Positions 4,960 through 35,133 of a DNA stretch of 64,000 nucleotides are shown one piece after another (position 1 is the first letter of the stretch; each line of letters starts with the position of its first letter). The notes below the pieces were generated by a model. The model was given only the letters and a program-made list of their open reading frames with translations. It was not told the DNA's origin and did not search any database. Source of the stretch: Dysgonomonadaceae bacterium PH5-43 (GTDB lineage Bacteria; Bacteroidota; Bacteroidia; Bacteroidales; Azobacteroidaceae); assembly GCA_029916745.1 (NCBI GenBank), contig JARXWK010000010.1:1-64000 (forward strand), given 5' to 3'. The position numbers and the translations under genes are program-made.

Positions 4960-4995
4960 AAAGTCGCCAGGAGATAGCTCTTGGCGACTTTTTGT
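4960..4995 (+). terminator. Strong rho-independent terminator (14-bp stem)
   Basis: AAAGTCGCCAGGAG (4960-4973), a 4-base ATAG loop, and the complementary arm ending at 4991, followed by a T-rich tract. One G-T wobble. It can also stop transcripts from the gene ending at 4847, but its position directly behind a full promoter suggests a tiny independent RNA. Confidence 0.8.
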
Positions 4996-5009
4996 TTTGT
5001 GAGTTGGGG

Positions 5010-5199
5010 AAATATCAGTGTCTTTCGACCTCAAATACACCGAGATTTAGGTAGAAACACACTGAGTTTAAAGGTATAACTCACTGAGGTTTTTCTGTAA
5101 CGCACTGTGCTTTTCTAAAAACTCCTTATCTCTTCTAAAACATACATTTTGTGTAGAAACGCAAGCAGTTAAAGATTGTAAAACAGAGTTAAAGTTTAG
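5010..5199. repeat. Degenerate tandem repeat of about 22 bp, plus a 30-bp repeat shared with 52.64 kb
   Basis: The core motifs ACACCGAG (5037), ACACTGAG (5058), TCACTGAG (5081) and GCACTGTG (5102) recur at 21-23-base steps with T-rich flanks between them. The 3' end of the segment (5168-5198) has two GTTAAAG words 20 bases apart and matches 52642-52670 with few differences. The whole gap 4848-5202 has no coding potential. Confidence 0.55.
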
Positions 5200-7017: not shown

Positions 7018-7044
7018 GTTTGTTTGTTATTGTTTGTGTTATGA

Positions 7045-7150
7045 GAACTAAGAACTAAGAGTGAAGAACTAAGAGTTAGTGTCGCAAAGCGGCAATACAC
7101 GCTTCGCGCCCATTCTTAGTTCTTAGTTCTTAGTTCTTCACTCTTAGTTT
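7045..7150. repeat. Intergenic inverted-repeat element, family A (copy 1)
   Basis: Left arm 7045-7079 is made of repeated AACTAAGA words; right arm 7113-7150 is the reverse complement (CTTAGTTCTTAGTTCTTCAC). The centre carries GCAAAGCGG and CGCTTCGCG words. A second copy sits at 19576-19686 and a half copy at 62107-62153. It lies directly downstream of the OPT transporter gene and could act as its terminator. Confidence 0.75.
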
Positions 7151-9145
7151 TTATCTTTTAGCTCTTAAGCTGTCCCAAGTTAGGTAAGCAATAAGGGCAA
7201 CATAAACCAATACTGCAACCCATTGCGAGCCTACTTTCTCTAACCAAGTTTCGTTTAAGAAGTCGAATCCAGCAAAGCGTATAGCAACGCTTACTACTCC
7301 CATTAAAGCACCACCAGCTATAAAGCCAGAAGCAAGCAGAGTTCCTCTATCAAGGCGAGCTTTATTAACTGCTTCGTCTTTACTGCGAGAGCTTACAAAC
7401 CAAGCTATTGCACCTCCAATCATTAAAGGAAGATTTAGTTCTATAGGAATAAACATTCCAAGAGCAAAAGCCAATGCAGGTATTTTAAGGAAATAAAGAA
7501 TAATAGCTATAACAGCTCCTATGCCATAAAGCAACCAAGGCGCACCAGCTCCCGACATAAGAGGATCAATAACAGCGGCCATAGCATTTGCTTGTGGAGC
7601 AACTAAACTGTTGTCGCCCGTAAATCCATAAGTTTTGTTAAGTATCATAATAACACCAGCAACGGTAGCTGCCGATACTATTGCACCTAAAAATTTCCAA
7701 CCTTCTTGCTTGGCAGGCGTAGTGCCTAACCAATATCCTATCTTTAAGTCGGTAATAAATCCTCCTGCCATAGACAAAGCGGTGCAAACAACGCCTCCCA
7801 TAATAAGGGCGGCTAACATACCAGAAGTACCTTTTAGTCCTACGGCTACAAGAACTACCGAAGCAAGAATAAGAGTCATTAAAGTCATACCAGAAACTGG
7901 GTTAGTTCCAACAATAGCGATAGCATTAGCCGCCACTGTTGTAAACAAGAATGCTATAACGGTTACTAATAGCCAACCAACCAATGCGTATAGTATATTG
8001 TGTATAACTCCGAAATAAAAGAATGCAAGAATAACAAGAAGAGTGATTACACTGGCTATAGAAATAAACTTCATCGAAAGGTCGCGTTGAGTACGTTTAA
8101 CTTCTTTGTTAACATCAGAGTCTTTGCCTTTAAGTTCTTTGCCAGCTAATCCGACAGCACTTTTTATTACTCCCCAAGAGTTGATAATTCCTATTACTCC
8201 CGCCATCGCTATTCCACCTATACCAACAGAGCGAGCATATTCTTTGAATATCATTTCGGGTTCCATATCTCCAATAGTTGTTGTGATATTAGGATTCCAC
8301 ATATTTAAGACTTCGCCTCCCCATATCATATTCATTATAGGAATAACCAAGAACCATACAAGAAAAGAACCACAACAGATAATTGTAGCATATTTCAAAC
8401 CAACAATATAACCAAGTCCGAGTACGGCAGCTCCTGAGTTTACTTTGAATACAAACTTAAACTTCTCGGCAATAGTTTCGCCGAAAGGAAGTATACGAGA
8501 AGATATAACCTCGTTCCACCAACCGAATGTAGCAGCAATAAAGTCGTACAAACCTCCGATAAGCCCGGCAAAGATTAATGGCTTAGCCTGACTTCCACCT
8601 TTTTCTCCAGAAATAAGAACTTGTGTAGTTGCTGTAGCTTCAGGAAATGGATACTTGCCGTGCATATCTTTTACAAAGTATTTACGGAATGGAATAAGGA
8701 ATAATATACCCAAAACACCACCAAGTGCAGAACTGAAAAATACTTGCCAGAAGTTTACCGCCATATCGGGATACTTGGCTTGAAGAATATAAATAGCAGG
8801 AAGTGTGAAGATAGCACCTGCTACTATAACTCCCGAACTTGAGCCTATCGACTGTATTATAACATTTTCACCTAAAGCATTTTTTCGTTTTAACGAGCTT
8901 GATAATCCTACGGCAATAATAGCAATAGGTATTGCGGCTTCAAATACTTGTCCTACCTTGAGACCGAGGTATGCGGCGGCGGCAGAAAACAAAACTGCCA
9001 TTAAGATTCCCCAGATAACCGACCAAGGGGTTACTTCCTTATAGGTCTTGTTATGCGACATTACGGGTTCGTACTCTTCTCCTGGTTTTAACTCTCGGTT
9101 AGCATTATCGGGCAATCCGGGAAGCTTTTCTGTGTCTTTGTTCAT
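7151..9145 (-). CDS. OPT-family oligopeptide transporter
   Basis: Inner-membrane secondary transporter of the OPT/YSL superfamily, which moves small peptides or metal chelates into the cell with protons. 664 residues with roughly 15-16 hydrophobic segments, the normal size for bacterial members. Family marks seen: TPWSVIWGILMAVLFSAAAAYLGLKVGQVFEAAIP near the N terminus (residues 40-75), GKYPFPEATATTQVLISGEKGG (about 160-180), SWGVIKSA, and the NAIAIVGTNPVSGMT segment. A short polar N-terminal tail precedes the first helix. It has its own promoter (9181-9211) and reads away from recR. The substrate is not readable from the sequence. Confidence 0.92.
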   Translation of the reverse strand: MNKDTEKLPGLPDNANRELKPGEEYEPVMSHNKTYKEVTPWSVIWGILMAVLFSAAAAYLGLKVGQVFEAAIPIAIIAVGLSSSLKRKNALGENVIIQSIGSSSGVIVAGAIFTLPAIYILQAKYPDMAVNFWQVFFSSALGGVLGILFLIPFRKYFVKDMHGKYPFPEATATTQVLISGEKGGSQAKPLIFAGLIGGLYDFIAATFGWWNEVISSRILPFGETIAEKFKFVFKVNSGAAVLGLGYIVGLKYATIICCGSFLVWFLVIPIMNMIWGGEVLNMWNPNITTTIGDMEPEMIFKEYARSVGIGGIAMAGVIGIINSWGVIKSAVGLAGKELKGKDSDVNKEVKRTQRDLSMKFISIASVITLLVILAFFYFGVIHNILYALVGWLLVTVIAFLFTTVAANAIAIVGTNPVSGMTLMTLILASVVLVAVGLKGTSGMLAALIMGGVVCTALSMAGGFITDLKIGYWLGTTPAKQEGWKFLGAIVSAATVAGVIMILNKTYGFTGDNSLVAPQANAMAAVIDPLMSGAGAPWLLYGIGAVIAIILYFLKIPALAFALGMFIPIELNLPLMIGGAIAWFVSSRSKDEAVNKARLDRGTLLASGFIAGGALMGVVSVAIRFAGFDFLNETWLEKVGSQWVAVLVYVALIAYLTWDSLRAKR

Positions 9146-18734: not shown

Positions 18735-19346
18735 TTATTCGTTATTTTTCAAATTTTCAATCATACTATCTATCACTTCGTTGCCCTTTATGGTTGCAAT
18801 ACCACGAGTGTAGTTTAGAATAATTGTTCTTACAAATTCGTTCATCGAATATTGATGTGTGGGCAATTCACCTTCCATAAGCATACGAAACTGACCTTTT
18901 ATTATCCATACGCATATTTCAACATTAATATCGTTGCGAATTAAACCCTGTTCTACTCCTCTCTTAAATAGAGGAATTAGTTTTTGTATGTCATCACCTT
19001 GCCTGCTTTCTATTTGTTGATATAAGCGAGGGTGGTATTTCTTTAAGTCGAAAATCGCAAACTTATTAACACTATGCACTTCATTCAAATGTTTTGCATA
19101 AACACGCATCATTGTATCTATTACGTTTTCAGAGCTTTGAATGATAGATTCTATAGCTTCATCTGCCTTTTTTGAGTGTTCTTTTATCACTTGCTCAAGA
19201 AGACTTTCTTTATCACTGAATATTTCGTAAAGAGTACGCTTCGATATACCCATTTGTTGGGCAATATCCGACATTGTAACGGCTCTTATTCCTTTCTTAG
19301 AAAAAAGGTGTGAAGCTTCTTTTATGATGCGTTCTTTTAATTCCAT
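18735..19346 (-). CDS. TetR/AcrR-family regulator of the efflux operon
   Basis: 203-residue repressor-type protein. The N-terminal HTH is typical: KERIIKEASHLFSKKGIRAVTMSDIAQQMGISKRTLYEIFSDKESLL (residues 4-50). The C-terminal ligand domain (about 55-190) is divergent, as usual. It is the first gene of the efflux operon, so it probably represses its own transcript together with the pump; a palindrome lies over its promoter (19381-19408). The inducer cannot be inferred. Ends 33 bases before the TolC-like gene. Confidence 0.92.
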   Translation of the reverse strand: MELKERIIKEASHLFSKKGIRAVTMSDIAQQMGISKRTLYEIFSDKESLLEQVIKEHSKKADEAIESIIQSSENVIDTMMRVYAKHLNEVHSVNKFAIFDLKKYHPRLYQQIESRQGDDIQKLIPLFKRGVEQGLIRNDINVEICVWIIKGQFRMLMEGELPTHQYSMNEFVRTIILNYTRGIATIKGNEVIDSMIENLKNNE

Positions 19347-19575: not shown

Positions 19576-19686
19576 GAGAACTAAGAACTAAGAGTGAAGA
19601 ACTAAGAATTAATGAGAAGAACTAAGAGTTGGCGCGAAGTGGCGCAAAGCGACTCTAATACGCTTCGCCTTCACTCTTAGTTCTTA
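19576..19686. repeat. Intergenic inverted-repeat element, family A (copy 2)
   Basis: Left part 19576-19630 has repeated AACTAAGA words and right part 19669-19686 the complementary CACTCTTAGTTCTTA. Between them are GGCGCAAAGCGAC and ACGCTTCGCC, as in the copy at 7045-7150. Confidence 0.75.
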
Positions 19687-19697
19687 TTGCTACGTTT

Positions 19698-19852
19698 GTT
19701 TCACCCGTGTGAAACAGGTTGTTTCAATAGGGTGAAACGAGTTGTTTCAGTTAGGTGAAACAAGTAATTTCAGTAGTGTGAAACAAGTAGTTTCAGTAGT
19801 GTGAAACAAATAGTTTCAGTAGTATGAAACAAGTAGTTTCAAAGTATGAAAG
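19698..19852. repeat. Seven-unit palindrome array with exact 23-bp period
   Basis: GTTTCA (or ATTTCA) starts at 19698, 19721, 19744, 19767, 19790, 19813 and 19836, every 23 bases. In units 1-6 each is followed after 6 bases by TGAAAC, making an 18-bp palindrome with a 5-base linker (AGGTT, GAGTT, AAGTA, AAGTA, AAATA, AAGTA order approximate). Unit 7 is shortened and ends TGAAAG. Units 4-6 share the GTAGTG-type centre; units 1-3 differ in the centre only, so the half-sites are what is conserved. Two lone TGAAAC words precede the array at 19540 and 19561. Not coding. Confidence 0.9.
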
Positions 19853-19903: not shown

Positions 19904-19915
19904 TTCTTTGTTTTG

Positions 19916-20002
19916 CGGAAGCGGCGAGATTCGAACTCGCGGTACGGTTACCCGTACGTCAGTTTAGCAAACTGGTGGTTTCAGCCACTCACCCACACTT
20001 CC
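19916..20002 (-). tRNA. tRNA-Ser (GCT)
   Basis: 87-base class II tRNA with a long variable arm. Acceptor GGAAGTG pairs with CGCTTCC (one G-T), anticodon loop TTGCTAA gives anticodon GCT for AGC/AGU serine codons, variable-arm stem has GTACGG/CCGTAC, T arm GCGAGTTCGAATCTCGC. CCA is not encoded. A terminator follows at 19903-19873. Confidence 0.96.
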
Positions 20003-34632: not shown

Positions 34633-35133
34633 TTTATAAAGCACAAAAATAAAAGCTTCACTTAGGGTCTTCTCTCTTAGTAGAGACCCCTCTTCTCTCT
34701 TAGTAGATAGGCGAGGTGTCTCTACTAAGAACGGCGGGGTGTCTTAAGTATTAAGGCGGGGCGGTTATACTAAGAGCGATATCGGGTCTCTACTAAGAGC
34801 GACGAGGTGTCTCTACTAAGAACGACAGGGGGTATCTAATAACAAGCAATTCGCCTTTCTACTAAGAGCGATTAGAGGGTTCTCCTAAGAGTGGTGGAGT
34901 GCTTCATAAGAGTGATATAGCTGTCCATTTGTCCACACGCTAAATTTTACGCTCTTCTTCGAGAGTTAAGTATTTACAGATAGTTGCCTATTGGGATAAT
35001 TAGCTTACACTCTTGCCTTAGTTCTTAAACCAAGCAAAGGGTCGATAATGTCAAAATAATAGAATATAGAGAAGTCTTGTGAAAATAAGTAAGTATAGAA
35101 AATGTCGAGAATTGGGGTGAAATAGAAAAAAAG
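34633..35133 (+). repeat. Large intergenic element C, copy 1: 22-23-bp array plus unique tail
   Basis: Non-coding. From 34650 to about 34920 there are about eleven degenerate units of 22-23 bp around CTACTAAGAGCGA (clearest at 34719, 34764, 34786, 34809, 34856, 34879); the first two units are inverted (TCTTAGTAGA). A roughly 210-260-base tail follows without repeats. The entire element is matched, in reverse complement, by 51881-52384, with scattered differences and small indels. The gap 34517-35181 contains otherwise only the marR promoter. Confidence 0.92.

Follow-up and report, generated by a model that had tools for sequence, protein, structure and literature searches.

The window analysed here, a stretch of 64,000 nucleotides of Dysgonomonadaceae bacterium PH5-43, contains a tandem array at 19698-19852, in a gap between a gene for a TetR-family regulator and a gene for tRNA-Ser (Table 1). 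This gap was given in the earlier note as gene-free and about 570 bases long, in agreement with the 568 bp that we measured (from the end of the TetR gene at 19346 to the start of the tRNA gene at 19915). The array was described there as seven 18-bp palindromes with an exact 23-bp period. The seven starts and the uniform 23-bp steps between them stand, but GTTTCA-N6-TGAAAC is exact in only five units (1-3, 5 and 6); unit 4 carries a mismatch and unit 7 is both degenerate and one base shorter. TRF calls the array at 19707-19841 with a period of 23 and a score of 191. It was also proposed that all sites face the same side of the helix; since 23 bp amount to about 2.2 turns of B-DNA (10.5 bp per turn), each unit is instead rotated by about 70 degrees relative to the previous one. 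The hairpin repeat to the left of the array is based on AGAACTAAGAACTAAGAGTG, has a 7/21-bp internal period and belongs to another dispersed family, which often adjoins 23-bp arrays; it is seen once more in the window at 7044-7167, and 7/21-bp minisatellites of different sequence are present in same-genus relatives.

Table 1. Features of the TetR to tRNA-Ser gap (positions in the window)
Feature	Position	Strand	Description
TetR-family regulator	18735-19346	-	bounds the gap on the left; situated upstream of OEP and AcrB-type efflux genes
Neighbouring hairpin repeat	19577-19691		AGAACTAAGAACTAAGAGTGAAG ... CTTCACTCTTAGTTCTTA; other dispersed family, often beside arrays
Full copy of dispersed seven-unit element	19698-19851	+	end-to-end alignment to the L052 reference copy
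Unit 1	19698-19715	+	exact, GTTTCA-CCCGTG-TGAAAC; fixed left-end unit of the element, first in most copies
Unit 2	19721-19738	+	exact; centre ATAGGG
Unit 3	19744-19761	+	exact; centre GTTAGG
Unit 4	19767-19784	+	one mismatch (ATTTCA); centre GTAGTG
Unit 5	19790-19807	+	exact; centre GTAGTG
Unit 6	19813-19830	+	exact; centre GTAGTA
Unit 7	19836-19852	+	degenerate, 17 bp, N5 centre, one mismatch, GTTTCA-AAGTA-TGAAAG
tRNA-Ser(GCT)	19915-20002	-	right bound of the gap

The array is not a chance product because, with up to two mismatches allowed, the window holds 11 sites where 4.6 are expected (none of 100 shuffles reaches 11), and because the genome-wide search for GTTTCA-N6-TGAAAC clusters that the earlier note had suggested returned 109 exact sites against one for a reversed-palindrome control. 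The genome (2.54 Mb in 46 contigs, 99.97% complete) contains at least 39 arrays, compiled from BLAST and pattern lists and holding 97 of the 109 exact sites, and all 39 can be aligned to a single seven-unit element of 152 bp. The copy in the window aligns to positions 1-151 of the 152 positions of the reference copy with 75% identity. A protein-binding site unique to this locus is thus not what the array represents; it belongs to a short non-coding repeat that is scattered over the genome in at least 39 copies. The centres of the units do not vary freely, since the same ones recur in the same order in different copies: CCCGTG is followed by TTAGTA, then by CCTATA and then by degenerate N5 units with 22-bp steps, similar to unit 7, which make up the distal part. 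The copies contain from three to seven units with a period of 23 bp that gives way to 22-bp steps distally, and in some of them (L057, L051) pieces of the array are inverted. The left end of the element is fixed and reads AAATTT or TGTC followed by GTTTCACCC, while the right end is ragged. A conserved leader of about 90 bp (AACAGTCAACTAAAAACGTTAACA..ACAGTGCTAAATTT) precedes about eight of the copies, with none evident in the window copy, and its strongest matches in the genome all lie beside arrays; no common tail was seen when array flanks were compared. Although the ends of the element read GTTTCA...TGAAAC, they do so simply through its palindromic units, and no terminal inverted repeat (TIR) has been demonstrated. 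A consistent target-site duplication was sought at the array ends and not found.

All 39 arrays lie outside open reading frames, though about 88% of the sampled sequence is coding. The arrays separate convergent genes 12 times, divergent genes 10 times and co-directional genes 14 times, which is close to the background of intergenic gaps, and therefore no clear preference for promoters or for terminators and gene ends can be discerned. No function dedicated to the gap between the TetR and tRNA-Ser genes is needed, although the stable stem-loops expected of the array could affect the transcript of a neighbour. It is conceivable, but improbable, that the arrays act at the RNA level, being transcribed into strings of hairpins that terminate transcription, direct RNA processing or stabilise mRNA. 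Both strands of the array do fold far better than shuffled sequences (z of -9.4 and -10.8), but low folding energy follows from the palindromes themselves. The arrays show no 3'-end preference, and the only Rfam matches are the tRNA itself and a below-threshold hit located there, neither of which covers the array. Moreover, arm changes affect one side alone in 83 cases and are compensated in three, which means that pairing as such is not the property being conserved.

The earlier note compared the array to iterons, and tandem repeats of iteron-like length are indeed what one would expect at a replication origin or in an integrated plasmid or phage. The notion of a local site of this kind is not supported, given that the same multi-unit element has at least 39 copies in the chromosome, all of them intergenic and indifferent to gene orientation. 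No Rep or partner gene adjoins the window array (the neighbours tested were TetR, OEP, AcrB and YceG), plasmids gave no match, phages gave one weak match, and a two-unit pattern was absent from 2.9 million viral contigs, which makes an iteron origin hardly credible. A relation to the centromere-like sites of the ParB/parS system is suggested by the half-site. The parS site is a 16-bp palindrome, TGTTTCACGTGAAACA, in which two GTTTCA half-sites are separated by 2 bp; the half-site of the array is identical, and ParB is encoded in the genome. The gap between the half-sites of the array is, however, 6 bp instead of 2, at least 39 dispersed arrays missing from relatives do not resemble a centromere, and the genome contains no GTTTCACGTGAAAC, its sole close match being GTTCCACGTGGAAC, with a different half-site. 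We thus consider it very unlikely that the arrays are parS-related. The single parS-like GTTCCACGTGGAAC is located in a short intergenic gap (G000:C9:59519-59532, L189), and the ParB gene is at C1:47310.

Among relatives, the tRNA-Ser/yceG(mltG) gene order is kept in most same-genus genomes, the array is absent from all loci that keep it, and a two-unit pattern is found in none of the 37 same-genus genomes and in only 7 of 247 Bacteroidales genomes. Conservation of the array, which the earlier note had put forward as a check, is not observed within the genus. Among the 84,980 species genomes scanned, 115 stretches showed the pattern, mostly from Bacteroides and otherwise from Mediterranea, Parabacteroides, Paraprevotella, Marinifilum and some Treponema; lone scattered matches outside those genera look like chance. 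Ten Bacteroidales genomes contain from 13 to 98 GTTTCA sites each, compared to 0-3 control sites. The spacing of units in other genomes is either 22 bp (220 cases) or 23 bp (136 cases) and almost nothing else, and only 2 of 87 arrays there overlap a predicted open reading frame; for 22, no pair of bordering genes could be assigned. Periods other than 23 bp, which the earlier note had named as a sign against its interpretation, thus occur in part, as 22-bp steps in distal units here and as the predominant step in Bacteroides. Centres common to this genome and to others are weakly enriched. Our search of the open-access literature found no relevant paper on tandem palindromes of Bacteroides.

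The earlier note regarded conserved half-sites around a variable centre as the mark of a protein-binding site. Over 159 units, the information content per position is 1.35-2.0 bits in the arms and 0.1-0.6 bits in the centre. When older copies of this genome are paired and compared at homologous columns, 5-7% of arm positions are changed against 12-14% elsewhere (p = 4e-7), so for these copies the contrast stands. It fails in the most recent pairs (below 7% divergence), where the arms carry 17 of the 24 changes and the remaining positions 7. Because of this excess, the conservation of arms in this genome may owe as much to turnover and to the way in which exchanged units align as it does to selection.

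A second comparison is provided by Bacteroides faecalis, B. bouchesdurhonensis and B. faecichinchillae, which have arrays at the same loci within flanks that are about 93-96% identical (the orthologous sets are L075/L099/L165, L095/L132/L164 and L111/L147). Stretches used to find the loci were excluded from the counts, since finding both partners by the same pattern creates an ascertainment bias. Differences affect 16 of 353 arm positions (4.5%), 42 of 179 centre positions (23.5%), 34 of 122 spacer positions (27.9%) and 196 of 2139 flank positions (9.2%), centres and spacers together being 2.7 times more diverged than the flanks. The p values are nominal, as positions are not independent: 1e-14 for arms versus centres and spacers, 1e-13 for centres and spacers versus flanks, and 0.003 for arms versus flanks. 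The last of these partly reflects a bias from defining units on one partner, for which the other two contrasts are too large. In these orthologous arrays the arms are held constant and the rest turns over faster than the surroundings. The changes include single substitutions, replacements of centres in blocks of 4-5 bases, and gains or losses of complete units (22 or 23 bp). Inversion of centres was considered as a source of their hypervariability and rejected: exact inversions account for none of the 22 centres that changed and for a single one of the 20 spacers that did, no more than chance. In L099 and L165, a 175-bp insertion containing another 22-bp repeat adjoins the array.

These data allow one to evaluate the possibility that the arrays are kept as binding sites for a conserved Bacteroidales protein, either a nucleoid-organising one or a CRP/FNR-like dimer, that reads GTTTCA half-sites. 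Conserved arms with variable centres, both at homologous columns here and at orthologous Bacteroides loci, are in line with such a protein, as is the recurrence of the same half-site with 22/23-bp spacing in many genomes, among them the ten Bacteroidales genomes with counted sites. The half-sites of CRP-type sites are likewise six bases apart. On the other hand, the 97 of 109 sites that are accounted for all fall in arrays and none has been shown to be a single operator, the arrays lack promoter preference, and they are missing from 240 of 247 Bacteroidales genomes and from every same-genus relative. There is no arm constraint in the most recent copies, the same genomes hold other families of different sequence with the same period, and binding alone does not predict centres that evolve faster than flanks. 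The binding-site interpretation of the earlier note is thus right about arms being more conserved than centres, but it describes what is a dispersed repeat, and we find it rather unlikely as an explanation of the arrays.

The element can be compared to several known kinds of bacterial repeats. The closest is BrickBuilt of Porphyromonas gingivalis, a 23-nt minisatellite MITE with 19 intergenic copies, a leader and a tail, which is species-limited and has an IS5-like TIR, GAGACCTTTGCA / TGCAAAGGTCTC (GAGACC..) (PMC4596501). As with BrickBuilt, the host belongs to Bacteroidales, the 23-nt repeats are in tandem without a spacer, dispersed, strictly intergenic and non-coding, and there is a leader in some copies, a variable number of units, a restriction to one or two species and predicted stem-loops. 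Unlike BrickBuilt, the element is present in at least 39 copies, has no defined tail, and has its leader in about eight copies only. A BrickBuilt-like TIR was searched for within 400 bp of arrays, and the best matches averaged 3.5 mismatches against 3.7 in a shuffled control. The element is a variant of the BrickBuilt kind in its repeats and placement; we do not call it a member because it lacks the terminal repeat and because the comparison is one of descriptions and not of units (the unit here is GTTTCA-N6-TGAAAC, and the text of PMC4596501 prints no unit sequence). With REP/BIME and RAYT-associated repeats the element shares short palindromes in intergenic mosaics at many sites, but its units form strict 22/23-bp head-to-tail arrays and no RAYT gene (PF01797) is present in this nearly complete genome, which rules out a RAYT/REP system; no other transposase for the element was identified. 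Correia, ERIC and CIR MITEs are likewise small, non-coding, dispersed and intergenic, but the element differs from them in its internal minisatellite structure and in that a TIR with target duplication has not been demonstrated.

The 22-23-bp period is more general than the GTTTCA sequence. A second family in this genome, TCTACTAAGA-N13, has a strict 23-bp period and forms 22 arrays in 464 kb, and its unit pairs (up to two mismatches) number 402 genome-wide against 0 in the control. This family, more abundant than the GTTTCA one, occurs in the window at 34660-34900 (plus strand) and as a minus-strand array near 52.2-52.4 kb; it is probably what the earlier note listed as the array of its element C. 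Another array mentioned there, at 5.0 kb, is a CACTGAG-type short repeat (4990-5110) that was read by eye and not found by TRF. In random stretches of the genome without GTTTCA arrays, the autocorrelation at 23, 46 and 69 bp is 247, 221 and 254 compared to a typical value of about 10. In Paraprevotella, the GTTYC family is accompanied by palindromes of other sequence (TACGAT and AAGTAAGAT types) that likewise recur at 22-23 bp; samples L265, L267, L269 and L276, from the Paraprevotella genome that has 98 GTTTCA sites, contain TACGAT- and AAGTAAGATATCTTACTT-type tandem palindromes with this period. Periods of 22-23 bp are found in 20 of 49 intergenic tandem repeats here, in 8 of 17, 7 of 15 and 11 of 16 of those in three other array-bearing genomes, and in 2 of 18 of those in 16 other Bacteroidales genomes, although these comparisons rest on small samples.

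Taken as a whole, the evidence leads us to favour, with some confidence, the view that the array is a copy of a dispersed non-coding element of MITE/BIME-like character, which consists of about seven tandem 22-23-bp GTTTCA/TGAAAC palindrome units, has spread in blocks and has been remodelled by recombination or template switching between units. That it is a dispersed repeat follows from the collinear units, the exclusively intergenic placement, the leader found only beside arrays, the inverted pieces, the variation in unit number and the absence from genus relatives. Its remodelling is indicated by indels of whole units, block replacements of centres, and centres and spacers that outpace the flanks at orthologous arrays. 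Some trans-acting machinery would have spread the copies as blocks, after which the alternating inverted half-sites would undergo recombination, gene conversion or template switching within an array. Such exchange between units would add, remove or replace them in steps of 22 or 23 bp, and would homogenise the arms while scrambling the centres and spacers. There may also be a half-site-binding protein, and the period might even be determined by it. Counting against a dispersed, remodelled element are the lack of an identified transposase or target-site duplication and the recurrence of the same half-site in distantly related genomes; besides, selection for binding would also explain why arms are better kept than their surroundings in moderately old copies and in orthologous Bacteroides arrays.

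Considered alone, the locus is ordinary repeat DNA, and the broader interest lies in the class to which it belongs. We put forward, as a tentative proposal that may well prove wrong, that some Bacteroidales genomes carry a process or protein, acting in trans, that assembles and reshapes tandem palindromes in 22-23-bp steps almost regardless of their sequence, giving rise to several unrelated families per genome, with fixed half-sites and with centres and spacers that outpace the neighbouring DNA. The combination of a shared period, fixed arms and fast centres points to a specific mechanism, be it a recombinase, template switching by a polymerase or a binding protein, and BrickBuilt of P. gingivalis may represent an example of it.
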